DNA from: a virus
Length of the DNA stretch: 23,488 nt
IMG/VR virus record: IMGVR_UViG_3300010148_000124
Span: 1 to 23,488 of that record
Strand: one strand, 5' to 3'
Both the position numbers and the translations under genes were made by a program. This document shows, one piece after another, positions 9,572 through 23,488 of this stretch; the stretch's first letter is position 1, and each line of letters starts with the position of its first letter. The notes beneath the pieces are model-generated. The model searched no databases and was not told where the DNA came from. It saw only the letters and a list, made by a program, of their open reading frames with translations.

Positions 9572-12500
9572 ATGCCACAAACTATAAATACATTTGTAAA
9601 ATCTAAAATGAACAAAGACCTAGATGATAGGTTATTGTCTAATGGTGAATATAGAGATGCTCAAAATGTAAATGTAAGTAGATCAGAAGGCGAAGACGTA
9701 GGTGCTTTAGAAAATGTATTAGGTAATACTTTATTATCTGATTTTGGTTTAAGCGCTATACCTAATTTAGAAATAATTGGATTTTTATCAGAAGAAGTTA
9801 CTAATAGAAACTTTTTTATAGCAACTAACTATACAGATGTATCAAGCGATGAACTTAGCAATCCTGCACCTTACGGAGCTAGTTGCTACATACTAATGAG
9901 AGACAATAATTCTAATACAAGTAGTATTTTGGTTGAAGGTAGATTTTTAAATTTTTCCAAAACACACCCTGTTTATGGTATAGATTTAGTAGAAGATTTA
10001 TTATTTTGGACAGACAATAGGAATCAACCAAGAAAAATAAATATAGATAAAGCTATAGCTTCAAACACGTATTATACTACAGAAGATTCTATATCAGTTG
10101 CTAAGTATTTACCTTATAATGCACCATATTTACACAGCAGTGTTTCAGTCCAGCCTACCACAGTAACTCAAAACGTAGCTTATCCATCTCCTAGAACAGA
10201 TTTATATACAAAAGTAGTAGTTTCAGATACAGATATTTTAAAAGTATTGCCTGGAATGGTTTTAAATTGCAATGTAGACGATGTTTATGTAACAGAGGTT
10301 TATCCAAATTCTAATCCTGCTGTAGATTCTTATTTTATAATAAGCAATAATAGTTTAAGCGCTACAACACTTAGTAATTTTTTAAATACTACTAATCCAT
10401 GCACGCTTAGGTTTCCATCTTCACAAAATAAAACGTCTCCCTATCTTTCCCCTAGTTCTAGTGGTAAAGTATCTGCTGACGTTACAAGTACATCAGTGAC
10501 AATAAATGATATAGTTGGTGATTTTCCAAGAGTAGGTATGAAAATGACTTGTCCAGGTAAAGATAGTGCTTGGGATTCTACAGGTGGCATTTCAAATTAT
10601 CCTTTTGTAATAACAGCAGTTACTAGAGTTACTACAGTTGACTCGACTGGGGCTACTGTCGCGCCTAATGACGTTAATCCACCGTATCCTAACGTAGGAA
10701 CAGTAGATATAACATTAAATTATTATCCAGTTGTTAATGGTGATGCTAGCGCTAACAATCCTATAATACTAGAGGGAGATATAGTTCAATTTTCAGCTCA
10801 AAATCCTTATTATGTTTCTAATTGGCCAGGTGATGAAGAGTTTTTAACTGACAAGTTTGTAAGATTTGCATACAGGTTTAAATTTGATGATGGAGAATAT
10901 TCAGTAATATCTCCGTTTACTCAACCTACTTTTATACCTAAACAACATGGATGGGTTATAGATAGTCCAACAGCTGACGATACTAAAACTTATTCAAAAC
11001 AAGAAGATGAAATAGGAGCTAGTACTATTGTTTCTTTTATGGAAAACGATATAAATAACGTTTCTTTAAATATAGAAACTCCTCACATAGTTAATCAGCT
11101 GCAAGACAAGCTTAAAATTGAAGAAATAGATATTTTATATAAAGAGTCAGACGCATTAGCTATTCAACTTGTTGAAACTATATCTGTAACAGATGATTTA
11201 ATTGCTAATAATACCACTAATATTTTAACATATGAGTATCAATCTAAAAAACCTTTTAGAACTCTACCTGAAAAAGAAACTACTAGAGTATTTGATAAAG
11301 TACCAGTAAGAGCTCTCTCACAATCAGTTGTTGGTAATAGGGTTGTTTATGGTAATTTTTTAGATAAGCACACTCCACCTGAAAATTTACAATATAATGT
11401 AGGTGTCAGTGAAAAGTATGACATGTCGGAAATTAATACTACTAGTGCTGTCACAACTAAACCTATAGCGGATTTTTCAAGAATATCTTATCCGAACCAT
11501 TCGGTAAAACAAAATAGAACTTATCAAGTTGGCATAGTGCTAGCTGATAAATACGGCAGGCAATCAGATGTAATTTTATCTGATCCACAAACAACTCAAT
11601 CTACTTTTGGTGGCCAAGTTTTTTCAGGTTCTACATTTTACCATCCATATAAAACATTTCAGCTCGCTGCTAGTGGAGGTGCTGAAACTCAAATTAATGA
11701 TTGGAAATTAGACAGTATAAAAGTATTATTTAGAGATAATATTCCAGAAACACAAACAGGTGAACATGCAGAAGGCTATCCAGGTCTTTATAAATCTGGC
11801 GAGTACACTGCTTTAGTAACTCCAGCAATAACTAGCACAAATGAAATTGTTGTAAGTAGTTTAGATCCTAATATAGCTGTAGGTGATATTATTAATTTAA
11901 GTGGAACAGTTGTAAGTATAAAAGCTATAGATGCTTCTGCTAAAAAAATAACAGTTTCAAGACCGGTTACTATATCAAACAATACTACTATAACAATAAA
12001 CGGTCCTGCAAATAAACTAGGATGGTATAGTTATAAAATAGTTGTTAAGCAAACCGAACAAGATTATTACAATCTATACTTACCTAATATATGTTTAGCT
12101 AGTCAAGAGTCTGCTTTAATGAACTCTTATGGAAGTAATGCAGATAATTTTTTAACAACTCAAAGTTATTATACTTCTTTAATATCTGACAACATAAATA
12201 AAGTATCATTAGATTTACAAGAGGTACAACCTGAGCAAACTCAATTTAGAACAAGTGATGACATACTTTTCCCAAGAATAGGATTTAACCCTGAACTTCC
12301 TACTGCTTCAAGTGCTTATTATCCATTTAGCTCCAACTTTCACCATGGACAAAACTTTGTTACAGTAAATAACGTAGGTAAAGTAACGGATATGGGTCTA
12401 CAGCAAGTAAACTTAGATGGTGTTTCTTTAGGTAGAATAACTGGATTTACTGGTGGAACCGGCGCAACTGCTGGGACGGTAGTTTACAACGTACCTGTAG

Positions 12501-12988
12501 TTGGTGGATCTGGGACTGGAGCTAGAGCTAAAGTTGCTGTTACAACCGGCACTACTGTAGATTATGTAGTAATCACTAATACAGGGAGAGATTATAAAGC
12601 TTCTGATACTTTTACTATAGCAGCTTACTCTTCTGGTACTACTGGATATATAGATGGTCAATCACAGTGGACAGTAGCTATTTCTATTGCCGCTTCTAAT
12701 TGGACAATTACACCTGATAAAGGAACAGACACTTCTCCACTTACTGCAGCTGGTATATATAACGCTAGTTCTAATCCAAGTACGATGCAACTTAGTACTA
12801 GTGAAAGTTTTATAATAGGTAATGAGGCTAATGCTAGAAATAATGTTTTTAGCGCTTTAGAAATAAAACCGTTAGACTCTAGATTAGACATCTATTGGGA
12901 AAGTTCTACGTCTGGATTGATCTCAGAATTAAATTCTGAAATATCCTCGGGTGATAGTGCTACTCCAACTCCTATTAAACCTAGATAA
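9572..12988 (+). CDS. Large tail (stabilization/nozzle-like) protein
   Basis: The product has 1138 residues and is almost entirely beta. Its N-terminus (KSKMNKDLDDRLLSNGEYRD, then AQNVNVSRSEGEDVGALENV) is a pattern I recall from large tail proteins of marine and crAss-like podoviruses, often annotated as stabilization or tail tubular protein. Regions near residues 212-284, 296-388 and 745-812 look like small beta modules set into the main fold. Residues about 954-1040 are Gly/Thr-rich with the pattern VVITNTGRDYKASDTFTI, a module seen in many phage structural proteins. The C-terminus has LDIYWESSTSGLISELN and a proline-rich end. It would form the short tail nozzle below the adaptor. The next gene follows after 10 bases and may be a split-off partner. 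Role inferred. Confidence 0.75.
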   Translation: MPQTINTFVKSKMNKDLDDRLLSNGEYRDAQNVNVSRSEGEDVGALENVLGNTLLSDFGLSAIPNLEIIGFLSEEVTNRNFFIATNYTDVSSDELSNPAPYGASCYILMRDNNSNTSSILVEGRFLNFSKTHPVYGIDLVEDLLFWTDNRNQPRKINIDKAIASNTYYTTEDSISVAKYLPYNAPYLHSSVSVQPTTVTQNVAYPSPRTDLYTKVVVSDTDILKVLPGMVLNCNVDDVYVTEVYPNSNPAVDSYFIISNNSLSATTLSNFLNTTNPCTLRFPSSQNKTSPYLSPSSSGKVSADVTSTSVTINDIVGDFPRVGMKMTCPGKDSAWDSTGGISNYPFVITAVTRVTTVDSTGATVAPNDVNPPYPNVGTVDITLNYYPVVNGDASANNPIILEGDIVQFSAQNPYYVSNWPGDEEFLTDKFVRFAYRFKFDDGEYSVISPFTQPTFIPKQHGWVIDSPTADDTKTYSKQEDEIGASTIVSFMENDINNVSLNIETPHIVNQLQDKLKIEEIDILYKESDALAIQLVETISVTDDLIANNTTNILTYEYQSKKPFRTLPEKETTRVFDKVPVRALSQSVVGNRVVYGNFLDKHTPPENLQYNVGVSEKYDMSEINTTSAVTTKPIADFSRISYPNHSVKQNRTYQVGIVLADKYGRQSDVILSDPQTTQSTFGGQVFSGSTFYHPYKTFQLAASGGAETQINDWKLDSIKVLFRDNIPETQTGEHAEGYPGLYKSGEYTALVTPAITSTNEIVVSSLDPNIAVGDIINLSGTVVSIKAIDASAKKITVSRPVTISNNTTITINGPANKLGWYSYKIVVKQTEQDYYNLYLPNICLASQESALMNSYGSNADNFLTTQSYYTSLISDNINKVSLDLQEVQPEQTQFRTSDDILFPRIGFNPELPTASSAYYPFSSNFHHGQNFVTVNNVGKVTDMGLQQVNLDGVSLGRITGFTGGTGATAGTVVYNVPVVGGSGTGARAKVAVTTGTTVDYVVITNTGRDYKASDTFTIAAYSSGTTGYIDGQSQWTVAISIAASNWTITPDKGTDTSPLTAAGIYNASSNPSTMQLSTSESFIIGNEANARNNVFSALEIKPLDSRLDIYWESSTSGLISELNSEISSGDSATPTPIKPR

Positions 12989-12998
12989 ATAAAAAAAT

Positions 12999-14711
12999 AT
13001 GGCTCGTCAAGTTGAAGTAGATTTTTACAACACATATGTATTAAGGAAAGTTAATAGTGCTTACAGAGTTGTTAAGGTTGGTAGTGATTTCAATTATTCA
13101 CCAACTCAAGCAGTTACTTGGGGTATAGCTCCACTAGGCATAGGTTACGATACTAAACCTTTTCCTAATGTAGATGCTAGAAGGTGGTATATAGAGGAAT
13201 CTAGAATAAGAGGTGGCTTTAACAACACCTCAACTGGTCAGGGTGTAAGAGCATATCTTGACGAAGAAAACCCTCTTCAACAACGTAGAGTTAATACACT
13301 TATATATTCTGGCATATACAATTCTAGAACAGGAGTAAATCAAACAAACGTATTCAGCGTTGGAGATGATATAACTAAGTCAGTTGATATATCTTTTGGT
13401 AGTATTCAAAAAACATATTCAGAAGATACTAATTTAATTGTTTTTCAAGAAAATAGAATACAAAGAGCTTTAATAGATAAAGATACTATATATACAACTG
13501 AAAGTGGTACTCAAACTCAAGCTGGAGCAGCTGTTATAGGTCAATTTGTACCATACAAGGGAGAGTATGGAATAAGTAAAAACCCAGAATCTTTTGCAAT
13601 ATATAACTATAGGAAATATTTTTCAGATAAAAATCGTAACGCTGTAATGAGGTTATCTAACGATGGGTTAACTGAAATAAGTATGTACGGAATGCAAGAT
13701 TACTTTAGAGATAATTTAGCAGAAATAGATATTAGTAATACTCAACAAAGTTTTACAGCTACACAAACTGGAGGAGGTACAACTAGCGACACTCTTGTTT
13801 CAGTTACAACTTCTTCAATAACTACTGGGCAAAACATAACACCAGGTATGCAAATATCATTAGCTGGAGTTGTACAAACAGGATATATAACATATGTTGA
13901 AGTTAGTGGTGCTAATACTAATATATTTTACTCTCAACTCTTTACATCGACATTATCTGGATCTTTAACATTTTTATATAACACTAAAGGAAAAATAATT
14001 GGTGGTTGGGATATACATAATAAAAATTATGTTTTGTCTTTACAAAAAAATTCAAACCAAGTAAGCACTGATGAAGCAACTTACAAAACATTATCTTTTG
14101 ATGAGCGTATAAATGGTTGGGTTAGCTTTTTTACTTATAAACCCAATTTAATGTTTAGTACTTTAAATAAGTTTTATAGTATTCAAAACTACAAACTATA
14201 TAGTCATTATCACGTTAACTCTGACAATGATACAAGGGGTAGTTTTTATGGAGTAAGAAAACCTTCTAATGTTACTTTTGTATTTAATGCACAGCCTAAC
14301 ATAACTAAAAACTTTAACACCATATTTTACGAAGGTAGTAATGGTTGGGAAGTAGAGGTGTTTAAATCTGGGTTCACTGGTCAAGATCCAAACCCAAGTG
14401 GCGCTGCAGGATCTTACGTGCAAAGCAATGATTCTATTATATCTATAAAAAGTTATGACGAAGGATCTTATGTAGATGCTAATACTGGTTATACTTTAAG
14501 AGCTGGTTTTGATAGAAAAGAAAATAGGTATGTAGCTAATTTAAGAAATAATTCAGCTGCTGCCACTGGTGAAATACTATTTGGAGCTCAAATGAGTGGT
14601 ATTAAAGGTTATTTTGCTACAGTTAAAATTGAAACAGATGAGACGACTCAATTGGGTGGTCCTAAAGAGTTGTGGGCCGCTGGAACTAATTACGTAATGT
14701 CATCATATTAA
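12999..14711 (+). CDS. Beta-rich tail protein, probable nozzle/propeller partner
   Basis: This 570-residue protein opens with MARQVEVDFYNTYVLRKVNS and contains repeated segments of aromatic and glycine-rich strands (for example GGWDIHNKNYVLSLQ, SFDERINGWVSFFTYK, MFSTLNKFYSIQNYKLYS), which suggest a beta-propeller, as in podoviral tail nozzles. RRWYIEESRIRGGFNN near residue 62 looks like a conserved block. Residues about 251-327 form a T/S/G-rich insert resembling the beta modules of the upstream 1138-residue protein. The gene begins 10 bases after that gene and is translated without a Shine-Dalgarno sequence. It may act in complex with its neighbour, or the two may be one ancestral gene that split. 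A receptor-binding role is possible but nothing here shows it. Confidence 0.72.
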   Translation: MARQVEVDFYNTYVLRKVNSAYRVVKVGSDFNYSPTQAVTWGIAPLGIGYDTKPFPNVDARRWYIEESRIRGGFNNTSTGQGVRAYLDEENPLQQRRVNTLIYSGIYNSRTGVNQTNVFSVGDDITKSVDISFGSIQKTYSEDTNLIVFQENRIQRALIDKDTIYTTESGTQTQAGAAVIGQFVPYKGEYGISKNPESFAIYNYRKYFSDKNRNAVMRLSNDGLTEISMYGMQDYFRDNLAEIDISNTQQSFTATQTGGGTTSDTLVSVTTSSITTGQNITPGMQISLAGVVQTGYITYVEVSGANTNIFYSQLFTSTLSGSLTFLYNTKGKIIGGWDIHNKNYVLSLQKNSNQVSTDEATYKTLSFDERINGWVSFFTYKPNLMFSTLNKFYSIQNYKLYSHYHVNSDNDTRGSFYGVRKPSNVTFVFNAQPNITKNFNTIFYEGSNGWEVEVFKSGFTGQDPNPSGAAGSYVQSNDSIISIKSYDEGSYVDANTGYTLRAGFDRKENRYVANLRNNSAAATGEILFGAQMSGIKGYFATVKIETDETTQLGGPKELWAAGTNYVMSSY

Positions 14712-14724
14712 ATTAAATTAAATG
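14706..14724 (+). repeat. A/T pentamer-repeat leader of the GNAT-like gene
   Basis: Three period-five copies of ATTAA begin in the last codons of the preceding gene and lead into the ATG at 14722. The spacing resembles the TTATA leaders at 3719 and 6821, with a different pentamer. No ribosome-binding purine run is present. Confidence 0.5.
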
Positions 14725-15126
14725 GAATTAAACGTAAGAAATCTTACAGAAAAAGATTATAAACTTTTAACAAAGTGGTGGTTAGACTGGGGTTGGGATC
14801 CAGTTCCTCAAGACATGCTACCTGATAATGGTAAAAGCGGTGTTATGATACAAGACGGTAAAAAACCTATAATAGCAGGATTTTTATTTTGGAGTAACTC
14901 TAATGTTGTTTGGTTTGACTGGATAATATCAGATAGATATTGTAGTAAAATAACAAGAGCAAAAGCATTGATAACCTTACTAAGCATAGTTGAAGAAATG
15001 GTTGAAAATGCTGGTAAAAAATATATAATAACTATTAGCGATAATAAAAGTTTAATATCAACTTTTAAAAAAAATAATTGGTATGTGGATGAGGATCCTC
15101 TACATAAAATAATAAAAAAAATATAA
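14722..15126 (+). CDS. GNAT-like acetyltransferase domain protein
   Basis: The 134-residue protein has the outline of a small GNAT fold: an N-terminal strand and helix (LNVRNLTEKDYKLLTKWWLD), a central hairpin (SGVMIQDGKKPIIAGFLFW, NVVWFDWIISD), a helix after the expected acetyl-CoA loop, and a late strand and helix (KYIITISDNKSLISTFKKNN) with the common NKSL turn. I recall similar proteins in marine phages beside internal virion genes. The acetyl-CoA loop is unusual: where GNATs have R/Q-x-x-G-x-G/A, this protein has SKITRAKAL and no glycine, so binding or activity may be altered. The product could modify a host or virion protein, but no substrate is indicated. The gene sits between tail and internal-protein genes, with a 3-base gap to the next. 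Confidence 0.75.
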   Translation: MELNVRNLTEKDYKLLTKWWLDWGWDPVPQDMLPDNGKSGVMIQDGKKPIIAGFLFWSNSNVVWFDWIISDRYCSKITRAKALITLLSIVEEMVENAGKKYIITISDNKSLISTFKKNNWYVDEDPLHKIIKKI

Positions 15127-15129
15127 GAT

Positions 15130-15708
15130 ATGGGAGGTTGTAGAAGTAATGAATATAAAGAAGCTGCAGAGGAATTATCTCAAGAAGCAGCTGATGACTT
15201 GCTAAGATTAAGAAAAGAAGCTAAAGACGCTATAAATGATAGGTCTAAAGAATTAGATGCATTAGTTGCTAATAGACAAGATGTTATAAATCCATATGCT
15301 AATTTAACTAACGAGTACGCTAATCTAGGTGTAGCTACTCAAGCTGCAGAGTTTCAAGCTGAACAAACTGATATTGCTTTAGCAAATACATTAGATAACC
15401 TAGCTGCCAGTGGAGCTAGTGCTGGTGGAGCTACTGCTTTAGCTCAAGCAGCTTTACAAAGTAAAAAAGGTATATCAGCTAGCATTCAACAACAAGAAGC
15501 TGCTAATCAAAAACTAGCTGCTCAAGGTGCTGCGAATGTAGCTAGGATGAAAGCTGAAGGAGAGAAATTTGCTTTTAGTATCACTGAAAAGAGAGAACAA
15601 CAAGAAATTGATAGACAATCTAATTTATTAGATCAAGAAAAACAAGCGTTGAGCGATGCTTTAGATCAACAACAATTTGCTGAAGATAATACATTCGTAG
15701 AAAATTAA
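15130..15708 (+). CDS. Small internal virion protein (T7 gp14-like)
   Basis: The 192-residue product starts with MGGCRSNEY and is then almost entirely helical, rich in A, Q, E and K with no proline after residue 60. A central Gly/Ala-rich segment (residues about 93-113, ASGASAGGATALAQAAL) separates two long amphipathic helices and could be a membrane-interacting hinge. Position before two larger proteins in a row, together with this composition, matches the smallest of three podoviral ejection proteins, which in T7 (gp14) forms the outer-membrane part of the ejection conduit. Identity with that family is inferred from order and composition. The gene has a 3-base gap upstream and a 5-base gap downstream, so it is tightly coupled. 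Confidence 0.65.
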   Translation: MGGCRSNEYKEAAEELSQEAADDLLRLRKEAKDAINDRSKELDALVANRQDVINPYANLTNEYANLGVATQAAEFQAEQTDIALANTLDNLAASGASAGGATALAQAALQSKKGISASIQQQEAANQKLAAQGAANVARMKAEGEKFAFSITEKREQQEIDRQSNLLDQEKQALSDALDQQQFAEDNTFVEN

Positions 15709-15713
15709 AAAAA

Positions 15714-17117
15714 ATGAGTTATAGAAGTCCAAATAAAACAACTAATAATTCTTCTACTTCAAGTGGCTATTCTAATTCTATTGCCATGGCACTTAGAGAT
15801 GACGAGATACAAGAAGCTAGGATTAAAGCCAATATATCTTCTTTAATACAAGGAGGTTTAAATGCTGTTTTAGCTAAACAAGATGGTTTAAATAACTTAA
15901 ATAAAAGAGTTACTAAAGCCGATTTAGAAATGTATAATAGAGTTGAGTCAGATGGTTTTAAAACTGGGTATAGTGCTTTTGATAAAAAAGCTGAAAACCT
16001 TATGTTTGATACTATAACTAAATTTAATAAAATCAAAGGTAGTATAGAAAACGGTACTTCTGATGATTTAGAATTAAGCAAACAAGGTTTAGCTTCTATA
16101 AATAGCATGATTGATCAATATGGAGACGCGGTTCCTAATATATTAGCTGTTAGTGAGGCTATAAATAACCAAAGCGCCACCGCTGAACTAAGCGATCAGT
16201 TCAGTGTTACGGGAGCACCAGCACATCAACTAGCTATAATAAGTAAAATAAGTCAAGGTAGTAGTGATATAGATATAATAGAAGAAAATGACAACATAAT
16301 ACTAGTTGATAATAATCCTGGAAAGTGGTATAATGAAGATGAAAACGGTAATTTAACAGAAGGAAAAGGTCCTACAAGATTAAATATTTTTGAATTTAAT
16401 AGAAACTTGCTTAATAAAAATAATCCTTATTTAAAATATAAAGCAGATCCTACAAGAGTAGAATCAGCAGCTTGGAGTGAACTTGTTAAACAAGAGAGTG
16501 GTTACAATCCTAACTACGTAAAAGATGAAGATGGTAAGTACAGTATGACTGTTGAGCAACAAAAAGCTTTTAAAGATAAGGTAACTGGCTTAGCTAATTA
16601 CAAGAAAAATGATAAAGGTTTTTATACTTATTTACCAGGTGATAACAATAATGAATATAACGGGTTTTCTACATTATTAAGAAAAAGAGGAGAGAGTATA
16701 TGGGAAGATGAAGGCAACATGCAAACACTCGTTAAAGAGAAAGGTTTAAAATCTCAATGGCCTAAAGTAATTCCACAACCAGGTACTAAAGAGTTTAATG
16801 AGTTTGTAGAGGGTCAATATATACCTGCCTTGAAATGGTTAGCTGAGGAAACGTTAAGAAAAAATTCTCAAGATATTAAATTAGATCAACCAGGTGATAA
16901 TGTGTCAAGTAATGAAAATAAAACTACTGGTAGTAAGGAAAATAAAAATAAAAAATCTATATGGACTAAAGAAGATATAGATAAATGGAATAAACTTGCG
17001 CCTGGAGAAACACTAGTTGTTGGAGGTTCTACATTTAGAAAAGAAGGTAAAACCGAACAAAATAATGTTCAATCTAGATTAGGTAATATGATGGAAAGTG
17101 AAGCTTTAAATAAATAA
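15714..17117 (+). CDS. Middle internal virion/cargo protein
   Basis: This 467-residue protein is of unrecognised family. The first 20 residues are S/T/N-rich and disordered; residues 25-150 are helical (RIKANISSLIQGGLNAVLAK, QGLASINSMIDQYGDAV). Around residues 250-400 there is a mixed, aromatic-containing domain (AAWSELVKQESGYNPNYV, GFYTYLPGDNNNEYNGF). KQESGYNP recalls the E-S-G-x-x-P motif of lysozyme-like transglycosylases, but the surrounding sequence does not otherwise support that fold. The C-terminal 70 residues are polar and linker-like. It lies between a gp14-like protein and the giant protein, as gp15 lies between gp14 and gp16 in T7, so a packaged and ejected structural role is likely. 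The enzymatic role is unproven. Confidence 0.62.
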   Translation: MSYRSPNKTTNNSSTSSGYSNSIAMALRDDEIQEARIKANISSLIQGGLNAVLAKQDGLNNLNKRVTKADLEMYNRVESDGFKTGYSAFDKKAENLMFDTITKFNKIKGSIENGTSDDLELSKQGLASINSMIDQYGDAVPNILAVSEAINNQSATAELSDQFSVTGAPAHQLAIISKISQGSSDIDIIEENDNIILVDNNPGKWYNEDENGNLTEGKGPTRLNIFEFNRNLLNKNNPYLKYKADPTRVESAAWSELVKQESGYNPNYVKDEDGKYSMTVEQQKAFKDKVTGLANYKKNDKGFYTYLPGDNNNEYNGFSTLLRKRGESIWEDEGNMQTLVKEKGLKSQWPKVIPQPGTKEFNEFVEGQYIPALKWLAEETLRKNSQDIKLDQPGDNVSSNENKTTGSKENKNKKSIWTKEDIDKWNKLAPGETLVVGGSTFRKEGKTEQNNVQSRLGNMMESEALNK

Positions 17118-17123
17118 ATAATT

Positions 17124-20100
17124 ATGGAAGAATTTAGACCACCTGCAGATGCTATAGAAATAGTAATTAATAATTTTTCTCCACCATCAGACGCTATAGA
17201 GGTTTCTCAACAAGACGACGAAAAAAAGAAGAAAGCTGTTACAGAGAACACTGCGAATGTGGCAGCAGAAGATCAAAGCAGTACGGATTTAGTATTGGAA
17301 AATGGTTCATTGGACTCAAGAAAATCAACAAGTGAAAAGTCTTATAAACCTATAAATCTCTACGAACAAATAGATTTAGTTAATGAAGAGTTTGATGAGG
17401 AAACTAAAGATTTTAGGAAATATATTGCCAACGAATTAGTTAAAGATAGAGAAAAAAGAAATAATGAAATATTAAATTCTGGTTTTAAATTAAAAGAAGA
17501 TGGTAAATACACTAATGAAGACTTGATAAAACTTAGAGACCTAGGTGTTGAAGTACCAGAAGAATTAATAACTATACCACTAAAGGATCCTAAAACAATA
17601 GGAGGAAAAAAATTTGAAACAGCTTTAAGACCTGAAAATATAAGTATAATTGAAGATCTTTTTAAAAATGAAGATGGGAAAAGTCCTATTGCTCAAGAAG
17701 TTTTTGAGGTACTTCAAAAAAACAAAGCGCAAGAGTCAAACGATTTAAAAATACTAACAGCTCAAAAAAATGCTTACAAAGATTCTGATATAAATGAATA
17801 CACTACAAATAGACTTAGTAGTTTAGCTGATTTACAAGCTAAGTCTTTTGCTGGAGAAGAAAACTTTAATAAACTTAAAAGTTCATCTACGAAGGAAGAG
17901 AAACAAAAAGTACTGAATGACATATTTGATACTGATAGTGCTGTTGAATTAATAGATGATGATGGTAATTTTATAGAAGCGTCTAAATTAAATAGACAAG
18001 AATTACAGAGACAAAAAAACGAATTAAATGAAGCTATAGAGGAGTATTCTTACATGGCTCCAAATAAGCTTTATAAAGCTTATAATGATATAGAAAACGA
18101 ACTAGTTTCGTTAGGTGCTCAATTATACGATAAAGGAGAAGAAGGTATATTAGAAGAAACTAATTTAGCTCAAAGAGCTAATGAGTTTTTAATAAACCTA
18201 GGAATGGATCCAGCTGAGGGTGATAAAGGACTTCGCGAAGACATGAAGGATTTACAAAAGATGAAAAACACTGGTGAAGCTAGTTCTAACCTATCTTTTA
18301 TACCTAAAAGCGATAATATTTTAGTAAAAAAATATAATAAAAAACTAAAAGAGTTTCAAACAATTCAAACTGCAATTGGTTTAAATGTTGATTTAACTTC
18401 TATAGATAGAGCTAGTACTTTAGATATTTTAGGTATTGAAACAGAGAGAGCTTTAGGTTTTGATAATTCTAGTATAAACCAAATGCAAAATATTATGGTG
18501 AACAATATACTAGATGATAAGCTTAATTTAAAAGCAACTGAACAAGAATTAGAATTATTCGGAGAGCCTGGTGAAGAATATGTTAAACAACCAGATCAAT
18601 TATTAAATACTGAAAGATTAGTTAGTTCACTTCCCGGTCTTACTAAAATGGGTGTTGAAATGGCTGCAACATATTATCTACTAGGAGGATCTGCTAATGT
18701 AGGTAAGATTACTTCAGGTATTGGTGAGGCTGTAGCTGTAAATGTAGCTAAGAGAGGAATAAATATTAACACGGCTAATGTTATAGGTAGATATTCTTCA
18801 GGTGTTATTCAAGAGTCTATAGGGTTAACAGGTAGCAATGTTATAGGAAGTAATGTTTTTGGTTCTGAAAAAATGCCTGTTATACCTTTTGCTGCAGGTA
18901 GTCAGTTAGGTCATTTAGGTGGTAATTGGATTAGCAAAACAATGTTGCCTTCTATTAGGAATATGGCTGTTAAAAACAAGTATCTTGGTACTGTTGTTAA
19001 TTTTTTAGACACGAAAGGTTCTAGCACTATTAATGGTGCTTTAAAATTCGCTGCTAAACCAGCTATAGGTGCTACTTCAATTAAGCTTGGAGAAGGAGTG
19101 TCAGGCGTTGTAGATGTTGTTAAAGATGAAAAAGATTTCAGTGAACTGTGGCATGAGATAACAGATGTTGATAGCTTTTTTGAAACTTACGGTGCTTTAC
19201 TATTTATGGCTGGTGCTAGACCAGATACTTATACTAATAGAGTTGTAGAAAATTTCCATAGAGATATTGATAGATTTAGAGGTAACTCTCCTGAGTGGAA
19301 CTCTATGGCTAGACAATTAGGTTTAACTACTAAGAAAAATGCTAAATGGTCAGACTCTGAGATAAATGAAGCTTTAAATAAAAAGAAAATAGAAATAGTA
19401 GAGAATCAAGATATAACAGCTACTCAAGCCAACGAAATGATTAACAATGCTAAGTATTTAGCGAATAGATTAAAACTTAAAAAAGCTTTAGATCAAGTTA
19501 ATACAAATGTTAAAGCAGAAACTTGGAATACAAAATATAAGAATTTACAGTTAACTATTAAATCTTTAGAGGCTGGAAACGGTATAACCCCACAAGATAT
19601 TATAAATATGACAGAGGCTGGGCTCGCTAATCAAGGAGCTTCTGTTGTTTTAGAATTACAAAAGTTAGGTATTAACGAAGCTGACGCAGTACAGGTTTAT
19701 AAATCTTCAAACTCTTCATATAACCAAGCTAGTAAATATTTTAAAGATCCTAATAGTAAGAACTTTAAAAGCTATTTAGAGAGCACTTCTAAAGAACAGA
19801 CTAACGAAAACATAAAAGAAAACTTAAAAACACAGTTAAAGAATAAAGAAATAAATAAAGTTACTTATGATTTAGAGTTGGAAAGATTAGATGCTGATAT
19901 ATTATTAGAACAAGCAAAACAAAAAACTTTAATAGATATAGCTAGAGGTGATACTCAACAAAGAATAAAAGAAACTTTAGATTATACTGAAGAAGTTAAA
20001 GCAGAAGGTACTGAAGTTAGAGAATTGTCGTCAGAAGAGTTTAATAAGCTTAAATCAGAGTTAACTGGAAAGCAACCAGAAACAATAGGTTATGGATTTC

Positions 20101-23100
20101 AAACAACAATAGATGGTGAAACTGTATTTGTCATTAACAAAGATGCTATGGCACCTCAAGGCGGTAAATATAGATTTGAATCTGGAGGTAAAGAATATGT
20201 AGTAGAAGGTTTTAAAGGATCAACACAAAAGCATGAGCTGTTTCACCCAGTGTTTGAAAGACGTTTTGACCAATCAGCGGTAGATAGTAGAGTTAGACAA
20301 AAAGCAAGAACAAGTAGAGATCTTGAATCTGCTAGAAAAGAAGTTGAAAAAGAAGATTTAGATTATATAGACTCGTTTAAAAATAGATTAAAAGAACTAG
20401 GTGTGTTTAACAGAGTTGAACAAGAGATGATGGAGCGTCCTGGCTATAAGGATTTAATAGAAGGTAATAAAAGGGATGTTCAAATTGAAAAAGAGTTTAT
20501 AAATGAATTTTTAGAACTACAAGGCGAAGGTCAATTAAATAGTTTGTTAGAAGGGGCTAATGTTAAAAAAGTAGGAACAGAAGTTATTGAATTGAAAAAT
20601 GGAGCTGATGTTGCTGACTTCTTCATAACTGGAGTTGAAAAAACACCTGAAGGTAAAGCTGAAGTTAAAAAAGCTTTGGAAGAATATAAAGACATAACCG
20701 GAAAAACAGCATCGATTCAAACATCGGAAAAAATATCTGATATTAAAAGCGTAGGTAAAGACGCTGAAAACATACCCTCTGATCAAGTAGAAAAAATAGC
20801 TAGTAGAGTAGCTGGAGCTGCTTGGAATAAGTACGGTAGTCGTATACCAAAAAACATAGCAGAAGAAGCTGGTATTACTAGAAAGTCATATATTGACGCA
20901 GCTAAAAATGATATACTTACTTCTAAGTGGATTAAAAAATGGAACGGTGAAAGACAACCATTTAATCAGTATGTAGCTAATAAAGGTATGTTAGAATTAA
21001 AAACTTTAGCAACTGAATTAGGTGTAGAGAGTAAAGATGCTCCTGTTAAAAAACGTATTAGTGACAAAATCACAACTGAAGGTGATAGAGAATTTGATGT
21101 TAAGTCTGAAGATCTTACGCCTGAAGAAGCTATGGTGGCTAAGGAGTCTGGTAAAGCTGAAACTATCAAAGAGACTAAAACAATAAATCCATTAGAAGCT
21201 CCAAATGTAAAACCTAAAGCAAAAGAAATTGAAGATGCTATAGACTTCACAGAGGCAGATGCTGTAGGTATGCGTACAGGTGGTTTTAAAAGAGTAGGTG
21301 AAACTTACGGAGGTAAAGCTGCATCAATAGCTTTTGGAGTTCCTGAATCTAAAATAACAGATCCAAAGAAAAATCTTACTTATGCTAAGAAAATCAAAGA
21401 TGGTATTCCAGAGCCATCTGAAGCTGGTAATATTCAACAAGCTTTTACTAACAAAAGTAAAGTAGAAACATTTATAAAAAACTTACCTGAAACAAATGTT
21501 AGTGATATGCAAACTAATATTGGTTTAGAAAAACTAGACGTGTCAAGGGATGTATATGGTTATGGTACTGGAATAAGTAATAGAGTATTAAAAACTTTTT
21601 ATAATAAAACTGGTAAAAGATCTAAAGGTTTAACTAGTCAACCTGCTATATGGGAATTAAAACCAGAGTTTAAAGGTAAAATATCTAATGAGACTATAGC
21701 TAAAGTACAAAAAGAATTAGGTATTACAGAAGCGGGTCAGTTAAATAAGTATGATAGAAACATTGGTCAACTACTTAAAGGAGTTGCTAAGCTAGAGGGT
21801 TATCAAATAGCTAACACAGTTGTAAGAAAGAAGATAGAAGGCATAGATATTAAATCTGCTATACCTAAAAAACAATTATTAGCAGACTTAAAAGCTGGCG
21901 CGAATAAATTTCAAGCATCGGAAAAAATATTTAATGAAACACTAAATAAGAAAAAAATAAAATCTATACCACAATTATTAGGTTCAGAAGCGTTAGTGCC
22001 TAGAATAAAAAAAGTTATGTATGGCGACTTGCTTGATATTGGTGGTAACTTTTTCTATGATGGAAAAAGGTCTAAACTTATAGGATCAGGTGTATTTTCT
22101 TCTAGGGCTGATGTGTTAAAAGCTTTTAAAGATAAGTTTCCGTTAGTAGGAAAATATGAAGTTGGTGTTGACAATTTAACTAGAAGATATGAGAAAGAAA
22201 CAGATAGTAAAGGTGAGTTAATTTACACAAATAAACAGGCTAGAGACAAAGCTGTCAAAGAGATGCAGCCAACGCTTGAAGCTTTGGAAGCTGGATTAAC
22301 TATGGAGGTTGCGGATTTTCAAGCGGAGATAAAGCAGATAATAAAAAGTAACCCTGAGAAATATAAAAAGTTTACTCCTGAGCAAATAAAGCTAATGGAT
22401 AGAGTTGTAAACTCAGAAACTTTAGGTAAAAATCCTGACAATAAAATAAATAGTAATAAAGCTGATTGGAAGAATATTAAAGAAGGTAAAGATTTATTTT
22501 TAGATATTTTTAAAGACGCTTACGAAAAGAATAATAAAAACTTAGATGTTATTGCATACATGCTTTGGCACCCTAATTCTAATTCTCATCCTTTAAGAAA
22601 CTTAGCAACTATAGTAGGTAAGGAAATAGGTAAGGATATAAGATATGAAGAACACATGTTACCTTTTAGTGCTTATTCTAATTTATTATTACAAGGCATA
22701 ACTAAGAATAGAAAAACATGGGATGGTTTGAAAGATTGGTTACACAACAATTACACTCAAGAAGTCATAAGTAATTATACAGGACCCAGAAATGGAGTCT
22801 ATAGTTCTCGAAGTATTCTTGATCATCCAACTAGAGATTTTTCTAAAGATGGTTCTAAATTACCTAAGTGGAGTTCAAAAGACAAATTGCACCCTGAATT
22901 AGAAACACAACTGCAAGAAGCTTTAGAAGGTAAAAGAAAATGGGAAGATGTTATTAGTCCAGATATTAGAAAGTATAATGAATATGGTTCTAAAAGAGGA
23001 TATGTAAATCCCAATAAATTAACTAGATTTGGAGAAACTGATGCCAAAAGATACAATGTTGAAGTACCTAAAAAACTAGAAACCAATTCCAACATAGTAG

Positions 23101-23488
23101 AAATACAAAATCAATTAATACATCAGCAGCTTATAGGTAAGATGAGTGCTAAAGAAGCTAGAGAGATGATAGATATTGCTATTAAAGATGCACCTGCTAG
23201 ATTAGAAGCTACTAAAGCTGACTACAAAATGCTTAGTGAATCTCCAGTGCTTAATTTAAGTGAAAAAATGTCTACCAATGACTTAGTTAAAAAAGCTAAC
23301 ACTATAGACAAAGCTTTAGCTAATGCTAGAAAAATAAAAAAAGAACCTAAAAAAATAAGAGTGTTTGACTTTGACGACACTGTAGGTACTAGTAAAAATA
23401 AGGTGTTTGCTACAAAAGGCAGTGAAAGAAAAGTGCTTAATGCAGAACAGTTTGCTAAAGAAGGTTTAGATCTTATAGATAAAGGTTG
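17124..23488 (+). CDS. Giant multidomain internal virion (polyvalent) protein, 3' end outside window
   Basis: An uninterrupted frame from the ATG at 17124 runs past the window end, giving at least 2121 residues. In order: a duplicated FxPPxDAIE peptide (residues 4-12 and 18-26); charged helical sequence to about 500; a Gly/Ala/hydrophobic block (about 502-700) that could cross or line a membrane channel; helices; strands leading to HELFH (1037-1041), the zinc-binding core of zincin proteases, with E1124 or E1128 as a possible third ligand; a helical domain (about 1218-1300); a domain of unknown type (about 1375-1590); a conserved-looking region with HPNSNSHPLRNLAT and EEHMLPFSAYSN (about 1810-1860); and DFDDT (D2082, D2084), motif I of HAD phosphatases. 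[IF]Q[TA]SEKI occurs at 1198 and 1596. By position it corresponds to T7 gp16, the largest ejected protein; the domains suggest added enzymes. Whether it is packaged is inferred. Confidence 0.85.
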   Translation, partial: MEEFRPPADAIEIVINNFSPPSDAIEVSQQDDEKKKKAVTENTANVAAEDQSSTDLVLENGSLDSRKSTSEKSYKPINLYEQIDLVNEEFDEETKDFRKYIANELVKDREKRNNEILNSGFKLKEDGKYTNEDLIKLRDLGVEVPEELITIPLKDPKTIGGKKFETALRPENISIIEDLFKNEDGKSPIAQEVFEVLQKNKAQESNDLKILTAQKNAYKDSDINEYTTNRLSSLADLQAKSFAGEENFNKLKSSSTKEEKQKVLNDIFDTDSAVELIDDDGNFIEASKLNRQELQRQKNELNEAIEEYSYMAPNKLYKAYNDIENELVSLGAQLYDKGEEGILEETNLAQRANEFLINLGMDPAEGDKGLREDMKDLQKMKNTGEASSNLSFIPKSDNILVKKYNKKLKEFQTIQTAIGLNVDLTSIDRASTLDILGIETERALGFDNSSINQMQNIMVNNILDDKLNLKATEQELELFGEPGEEYVKQPDQLLNTERLVSSLPGLTKMGVEMAATYYLLGGSANVGKITSGIGEAVAVNVAKRGININTANVIGRYSSGVIQESIGLTGSNVIGSNVFGSEKMPVIPFAAGSQLGHLGGNWISKTMLPSIRNMAVKNKYLGTVVNFLDTKGSSTINGALKFAAKPAIGATSIKLGEGVSGVVDVVKDEKDFSELWHEITDVDSFFETYGALLFMAGARPDTYTNRVVENFHRDIDRFRGNSPEWNSMARQLGLTTKKNAKWSDSEINEALNKKKIEIVENQDITATQANEMINNAKYLANRLKLKKALDQVNTNVKAETWNTKYKNLQLTIKSLEAGNGITPQDIINMTEAGLANQGASVVLELQKLGINEADAVQVYKSSNSSYNQASKYFKDPNSKNFKSYLESTSKEQTNENIKENLKTQLKNKEINKVTYDLELERLDADILLEQAKQKTLIDIARGDTQQRIKETLDYTEEVKAEGTEVRELSSEEFNKLKSELTGKQPETIGYGFQTTIDGETVFVINKDAMAPQGGKYRFESGGKEYVVEGFKGSTQKHELFHPVFERRFDQSAVDSRVRQKARTSRDLESARKEVEKEDLDYIDSFKNRLKELGVFNRVEQEMMERPGYKDLIEGNKRDVQIEKEFINEFLELQGEGQLNSLLEGANVKKVGTEVIELKNGADVADFFITGVEKTPEGKAEVKKALEEYKDITGKTASIQTSEKISDIKSVGKDAENIPSDQVEKIASRVAGAAWNKYGSRIPKNIAEEAGITRKSYIDAAKNDILTSKWIKKWNGERQPFNQYVANKGMLELKTLATELGVESKDAPVKKRISDKITTEGDREFDVKSEDLTPEEAMVAKESGKAETIKETKTINPLEAPNVKPKAKEIEDAIDFTEADAVGMRTGGFKRVGETYGGKAASIAFGVPESKITDPKKNLTYAKKIKDGIPEPSEAGNIQQAFTNKSKVETFIKNLPETNVSDMQTNIGLEKLDVSRDVYGYGTGISNRVLKTFYNKTGKRSKGLTSQPAIWELKPEFKGKISNETIAKVQKELGITEAGQLNKYDRNIGQLLKGVAKLEGYQIANTVVRKKIEGIDIKSAIPKKQLLADLKAGANKFQASEKIFNETLNKKKIKSIPQLLGSEALVPRIKKVMYGDLLDIGGNFFYDGKRSKLIGSGVFSSRADVLKAFKDKFPLVGKYEVGVDNLTRRYEKETDSKGELIYTNKQARDKAVKEMQPTLEALEAGLTMEVADFQAEIKQIIKSNPEKYKKFTPEQIKLMDRVVNSETLGKNPDNKINSNKADWKNIKEGKDLFLDIFKDAYEKNNKNLDVIAYMLWHPNSNSHPLRNLATIVGKEIGKDIRYEEHMLPFSAYSNLLLQGITKNRKTWDGLKDWLHNNYTQEVISNYTGPRNGVYSSRSILDHPTRDFSKDGSKLPKWSSKDKLHPELETQLQEALEGKRKWEDVISPDIRKYNEYGSKRGYVNPNKLTRFGETDAKRYNVEVPKKLETNSNIVEIQNQLIHQQLIGKMSAKEAREMIDIAIKDAPARLEATKADYKMLSESPVLNLSEKMSTNDLVKKANTIDKALANARKIKKEPKKIRVFDFDDTVGTSKNKVFATKGSERKVLNAEQFAKEGLDLIDKG
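20717..20738 (+). repeat. In-frame 22-base near-repeat, copy 1
   Basis: It matches 21911-21932 with two mismatches, both in the giant protein gene. It encodes most of IQTSEKI (residues 1198-1204), just before a new helical domain, and includes the rare serine codon TCG. Confidence 0.7.
21911..21932 (+). repeat. In-frame 22-base near-repeat, copy 2
   Basis: It matches 20717-20738 at 20 of 22 bases. It encodes most of FQASEKI (residues 1596-1602), at what looks like a linker between two domains of the giant protein. The two copies lie 1194 bases (398 codons) apart. Confidence 0.7.

Follow-up and report, generated by a model that had tools for sequence, protein, structure and literature searches.

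A probable zincin-like metallopeptidase domain in the giant late protein of an IMG/VR phage

Zincin-like metallopeptidase (MPTase) domains have been described as the commonest domain type of polyvalent proteins, one helix carrying HExxH and the next a Glu (PMC5512222). The options discussed for these peptidases are self-processing before packaging (P1 DdrB), processing after injection, or action on host proteins, and Iyer et al. 2017 argue for self-processing of such domains, citing P1 DdrB (PMC5512222). For phage N4, a 2025 preprint describes an HExxH motif in the C1 domain of vRNAP (gp50) and reports that the C-terminal region restrains the polymerase (PMC12633501). Here, an HELFH motif was followed up in IMGVR_UViG_3300010148_000124, a linear virus record of 23,488 bases whose whole length is referred to as the window. 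The motif lies in the giant open reading frame (ORF) that forms the last late gene (17124..23486, 2121 codons, 3' end open at the contig end), as defined from the ORF list and from relatives; all features given below are on the + strand. The HELFH region very probably forms a zincin-like domain and, by sequence comparison, adds to the known zincin type of polyvalent proteins.

HELFH occupies residues 1037–1041 (20232..20246), exactly where the preliminary description of this DNA had placed it, and on the basis of the motif scan and of conservation it would contribute two candidate zinc-ligand His and a general-base Glu. It is the sole HExxH in the 2121-residue giant ORF and among the 14 window ORFs checked. 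In residue shuffles of the giant ORF, HExxH was present in 29 of 5000, which is what speaks for a chance motif; from shuffle statistics alone, HELFH is unusual, not decisive, and it is conservation that decides. The putative metallopeptidase domain, as aligned and modelled and as matched by profile, spans residues 968–1200 (20025..20723). It resembles the polyvalent-protein MPTase, as far as that is described in PMC5512222, in its HExxH helix, the Glu of a later helix, the variable insert between them and its mid-giant, multidomain location; sharing one large protein with domains of other kinds is a context of polyvalent type. The domain of the window family was not scored convincingly by any Pfam or PHROG model, and searches of the window's own domain against Pfam, PHROGs and PDB sequences gave no useful match. 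Five of the 43 members were weakly similar to Pfam Peptidase_M78 (IrrE-like), with 0.013 as the best E, the window member giving no match. A PDB sequence search with the domain profile returned no meaningfully scoring zincin (zinc endoprotease 1c7k, E 0.22; IrrE 3dte, E 1.4). The domain was not reported in flavobacterial phage giants in a limited search of open papers, and the accessible text of PMC5512222 has no mention of Cellulophaga or Flavobacterium.

Four IMG/VR contigs carried a relative of the domain, with 57–60% identity in the best segment. Three domain scans of viral_contigs returned the same four each time, genome_contigs yielded none, and a tblastn search of 50,697 phage records with the giant gave no match at E 0.01. 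The giant ORFs of these close relatives measured 3152, 2854 (open), 3024 and 3312 residues from stop to stop, and all four have HEVFH in the corresponding position as their only HExxH; conservation in close homologues, a check that the preliminary description had proposed, was observed in 4 of 4. Domain identity was 56–62%, versus 40–46% for the giant overall (long BLAST matches), and the domain is better conserved than the giant as a whole among close relatives.

Distant loci were sought in viral_contigs with a profile of the conserved stretch of the upstream virion gene (12999–14711). At least 585 viral stretches matched, and the best 80 were fetched. A locus was judged where its longest downstream ORF reached at least 1100 residues, as in 49 of the 80; the other 31 held no ORF of 1100 residues, most being cut by the contig or the fetched end. 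Exactly one HExxH was found in each of the 49 judged giants, where residue shuffles predict 0.11 of 49, at positions ranging from residue 597 to 1470. None of the 73 other downstream ORFs of at least 300 residues in the distant loci contained HExxH, and three scrambled versions of the motif were each found in none of the 49 giants. Two loci under the length rule (L051 and L089) still carry HExxH. The 49 giants are not 49 independent events, because their segments cluster by identity, into 35 clusters at 50%, 29 at 40% and 9 at 30%.

Segments centred on HExxH were aligned using MAFFT (53 rows). Six of 59 segments were left out beforehand: L030, L031, L051 and L089 (cut short), L096 (same as L094 in the stretch printed) and the first site of MW202828. 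In 52 of the 53 rows, one downstream column holds Glu, and the window residue there is E1124 (20493..20495), the candidate third zinc ligand, within EFINEF. Between the second His and this Glu the distance varies from 43 to 109 residues, with 82 in the window. A second alignment of 43 rows (A4) was made without the harder-to-align L024, L055, L070, L073, L078, L087, L092 and L097 and without the database records elemoA and MW202828, and a third of 37 rows (A5) also omitted the window clade; the invariant columns were in both cases exactly four, H, E, H and E. The same four, H, E, H and E, were the sole invariant columns of A7, an unguided alignment of whole giants (22 rows; 5166 columns, 13–17% identity to the first sequence). 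A7 is the clearest test, because the A4 and A5 segments were chosen around HExxH. All 22 giants were known beforehand to contain HExxH; A7 adds that the motifs fall into register, that the downstream Glu never varies and that no other column is invariant. The third-ligand candidates named earlier, E1124, E1128 and E1131, are all present; E1124 stands, being invariant in the 43 rows, while the invariance of E1128 and E1131 goes no further than the five closest sequences, and these two fall away. A chance origin of HELFH is contradicted by the retention of HExxH in all 49 judged relatives and by the invariant alignment columns, and is rated as vanishingly improbable. The site is probably a working one, since almost nothing but its four catalytic-type residues stays fixed among related phages that otherwise differ greatly.

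The structure predicted with AlphaFold from the single sequence was poor (predicted local distance difference test, pLDDT, 51.9), and A4 gave a partial model (mean pLDDT 73.1; predicted template modelling score, pTM, 0.63). The modelled order is a helix, two hairpins, the HExxH helix (1034–1048), further helices and a helix starting at E1124, the strands being the less certain part. Strands GFQTTI (991–996) and ETVFVI (999–1004; together 20094..20135) are predicted before the active-site helix, and KEYVVE (1023–1028; 20190..20207) is a predicted strand within an insert that the alignment assigns to the window's own clade; ETVFVI and KEYVVE had been described as beta-strand-like from the letters alone, and both are strands in the model. 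The predicted secondary-structure order of helix, beta sheet, HExxH helix and Glu helix would fit a zincin. Downstream, LKNGADVADFF (1157–1167; 20592..20624) matches in the alignment the G-x-D-V-x-x-F motif of the wider family.

Profile comparison joined the window clade to the 37 other giants, hhalign aligning HExxH and E1124 with their counterparts (P 8.6e-9). A profile of those 37, containing no row of the window clade, matched window residues 991–1196 (E 1e-7) and also gp90 of Flavobacterium phage elemoA over most of the domain (E 8e-11). The latter is a protein of 3694 residues annotated 'structural protein', from a phage cultured on Flavobacterium sp. BAL314. Like the window giant, it has the domain, with HEIFH at 1543, and is located after the late genes; unlike the window giant, the rest of the protein was not alignable by BLAST. 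The giant of MW202828 (L012) has two HExxH, at residues 1615 and 2500, with weaker family similarity (P 6.9e-5 and 2.3e-4).

The comparison was extended to the zincin-like C1 domain of N4 vRNAP, aligned from N4 and 11 other Schitoviridae, where the invariant residues include the His, His and Glu of HExxH and NEFMA. Against A5, this alignment gave P 2.9e-6 and a probability of 88% across 57 columns that end with HExxH (six column shuffles, P 0.41–0.92; reversed, 0.22). As in the window domain, HExxH in N4 is preceded by a matching helix and strands, and the conserved Glu that follows it by about 75 residues (NEFMAW) has a comparable downstream Glu in the window family. The zincin-like reading of the preliminary description is supported by the conserved HExxH of homologues and by the profile similarity to N4. 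The N4 order gp52-gp51-gp50, small, medium and giant, in which the giant is the last late product of a short-tailed phage, recurs in the window. Unlike N4 gp50, the giants of the window family showed no recognisable RNA polymerase, by profile searches only.

In the proposed mechanism, a zinc ion would be bound by H1037, H1041 and E1124, with E1038 serving as the general base. The giant that carries the domain would be an internal protein of the virion, taken up at packaging and, if N4 gp50 is a guide, entering the host together with the DNA. The domain would then cut its own giant protein, during or after delivery, and so free the N-terminal part, the segment after the peptidase and a C-terminal HAD/polynucleotide-kinase-like domain. 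What the sequences show is a strongly constrained HExxH...E site, with its third-ligand candidate and its relation to N4's zincin, in a fast-changing giant of the late gene block. The N4-like gene order and the 'structural protein' annotations of elemoA and phi38:1 lead us to infer an internal, ejected giant; we infer likewise that the site binds zinc and is catalytic, that the window phage packages and ejects the giant, and that the giant is cut by its own domain. An active metallopeptidase that is delivered with the giant, and most likely cuts the giant itself, is given a probability of roughly 0.5.

Several observations weigh against this proposal. HExxH is absent from the giants of three of five annotated phage records (phi38:1, phi19:3 and Panino), so giants of this kind do not all need it. 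No HExxH was found in the about 6.4 kb readable of the frame-split giant region of one long locus, L098 (14034–20463 of that locus), where the region is spread over several ORFs in different frames, from sequencing error or a real split. L097 is the one row without the downstream Glu in the 53-row alignment. The model, of moderate quality, matched no zincin among the matches listed by Foldseek (PDB and BFVD) and VIA-align; in the latter, 11 of 504 chains reached Z of at least 2, the best (Z 4.5) being a nuclear-pore chain, and nothing was convincing. The N4 alignment spans only the part up to HExxH, the later Glu helix lying outside it. Finally, N4 vRNAP is reported in the available literature as packaged uncut, so that self-cleavage does not necessarily follow from the presence of a zincin in such a giant.

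This last report also bears on whether the zincin fold serves as a structural or regulatory module instead of a protease, with a zinc site for stability or other HExxH chemistry. In N4 the motif lies in the vRNAP C-terminal region, for which restraint of the polymerase is reported; radical-SAM-linked HExxH proteins are mentioned by the same authors (PMC12633501). The general-base Glu is, however, as invariant as the ligands, and a zinc site with a purely structural role would have no need of it; we consider such a module very unlikely. An active peptidase that cuts other virion proteins in assembly, as a maturation protease, would suit the location of the domain in the late virion gene block, and the family scans made picked out no separate protease of that kind from the window genes. 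The window holds part of a genome, however, so a separate protease may lie elsewhere, and the three annotated relatives named above have virion genes and a giant without HExxH, which makes this role quite unlikely. An early effector that targets a host protein after ejection, the host option raised for polyvalent peptidases (PMC5512222), is possible, if doubtful: very fast divergence around four fixed catalytic residues would suit host-varying targets, yet whole giants diverge equally fast, so the divergence is not specific to the peptidase, and the analysis suggested no host target.

The preferred proposal, self-cleavage of the giant, would free among other parts a segment after the peptidase (20715..21164) whose equivalent in many relatives resembles sigma-70 region 2; the window's version does not score. 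Many relatives show a [FY]DP....Y pattern in this segment, some 190–285 residues after HExxH, and a sigma-70-region-2-like segment after the peptidase was noted in L036, L045, L055, L058, L080, L093, L095, L062 and L071. With a profile of 28 rows (A8), sigma factors were the first 11 of 21 PDB matches (best E 4e-5), and 5 of the 28 members weakly matched Pfam Sigma70_r2 (best E 0.0027); A8 is biased, because its rows were picked with a sigma-like regular expression. A hidden Markov model (HMM) built from four E. coli sigma factors was run over 59 giants. Its ten best matches all lay 190–285 residues after HExxH, six of the ten coming from one clade, and its best E was 0.014, scarcely lower than that of the best-scoring among five shuffled sets (0.034 to 2.5). 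Using hhalign against the four sigma factors, P was 4.5e-5 for A8, 0.001 for A14, 0.0016 for A11 and 0.0027 for A12, compared with 0.24 and 0.17 for two unrelated alignments, 0.55–0.98 for eight shuffles and 0.62 for the reversed alignment. No sigma factor was found with A9, an unselected and badly aligned set of 50 rows; single-clade searches reached sigma factors only at E 0.12 and 0.52, and the window clade gave no match to them (hhalign P 0.33). On weak to moderate evidence, the sigma-like segment may be treated as a lead for the relatives, not as a feature of the window. It was not reported for polyvalent proteins in the limited search of open papers, and 'sigma' occurs 0 times in the accessible text of PMC5512222. 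That the peptidase releases or uncovers a sigma-like domain carried in the virion, and that this domain steers host RNA polymerase at once to phage early promoters, seems unlikely; if true, it would be a counterpart of N4's ejected polymerase, borrowing the host enzyme instead of bringing its own.

The window's post-peptidase segment was 78% identical to that of L039 over 105 residues. Residues 1147–1303 (nucleotides 20562–21032) were 60% identical to L039 over 159 residues, while the peptidase itself groups with the four close relatives (L001–L004). An L039-like stretch beside a peptidase like theirs suggests recombination just downstream of the peptidase.

At the C-terminal end, FDFDDT (23364..23381) is the apparent start of the HAD/polynucleotide-kinase-like domain, which is cut by the contig end (to 23486) and was identified through PHROG 415 in relatives. 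PHROG 415 (polynucleotide kinase) was matched in all three close relatives scanned (L001, L003 and L004; E 9.3e-8 to 1.1e-5) and in 1 of 22 more distant, mostly incomplete giants.

All major window ORFs lie on the + strand, in the order terminase, portal, capsid-like virion protein, further structural genes and then a small acetyltransferase-like gene, which is followed by a 192-codon gene, a 467-codon gene and the giant ORF. The 192- and 467-codon genes directly upstream of the giant (15130..17117) are proposed as companion ejection proteins, by gene-order analogy only. The acetyltransferase-like gene of the late block (14722–15126) takes its name from a relative's annotation; tblastn relatives were found at the MW202828, Panino, phi19:3 and elemoA loci and none in L001–L004. 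Window genes 9572–12988 and 12999–14711 match different parts of PHROG 14478 and of one long gene in other phages, an apparent gene fission. Relatives of the window portal were found in 87 records, all below 60% identity, from phages of Flavobacterium, Cellulophaga, Tenacibaculum and Maribacter and one unclassified record, and from the hosts of these phages the window phage probably infects a member of Flavobacteriia.

The recovery of a relative of the upstream gene in at least 585 viral stretches points to a probably large, unannotated group of marine phage giants. Selection appears to be pinned to four residues in a protein of about 2000 residues that is otherwise barely conserved, so that a change of one residue should reveal the role of the peptidase, and the domain is carried by a cultured phage, elemoA on Flavobacterium sp. 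BAL314. The family may thereby address a question left open for N4 and P1, namely the purpose of zincin domains in giant ejected proteins.

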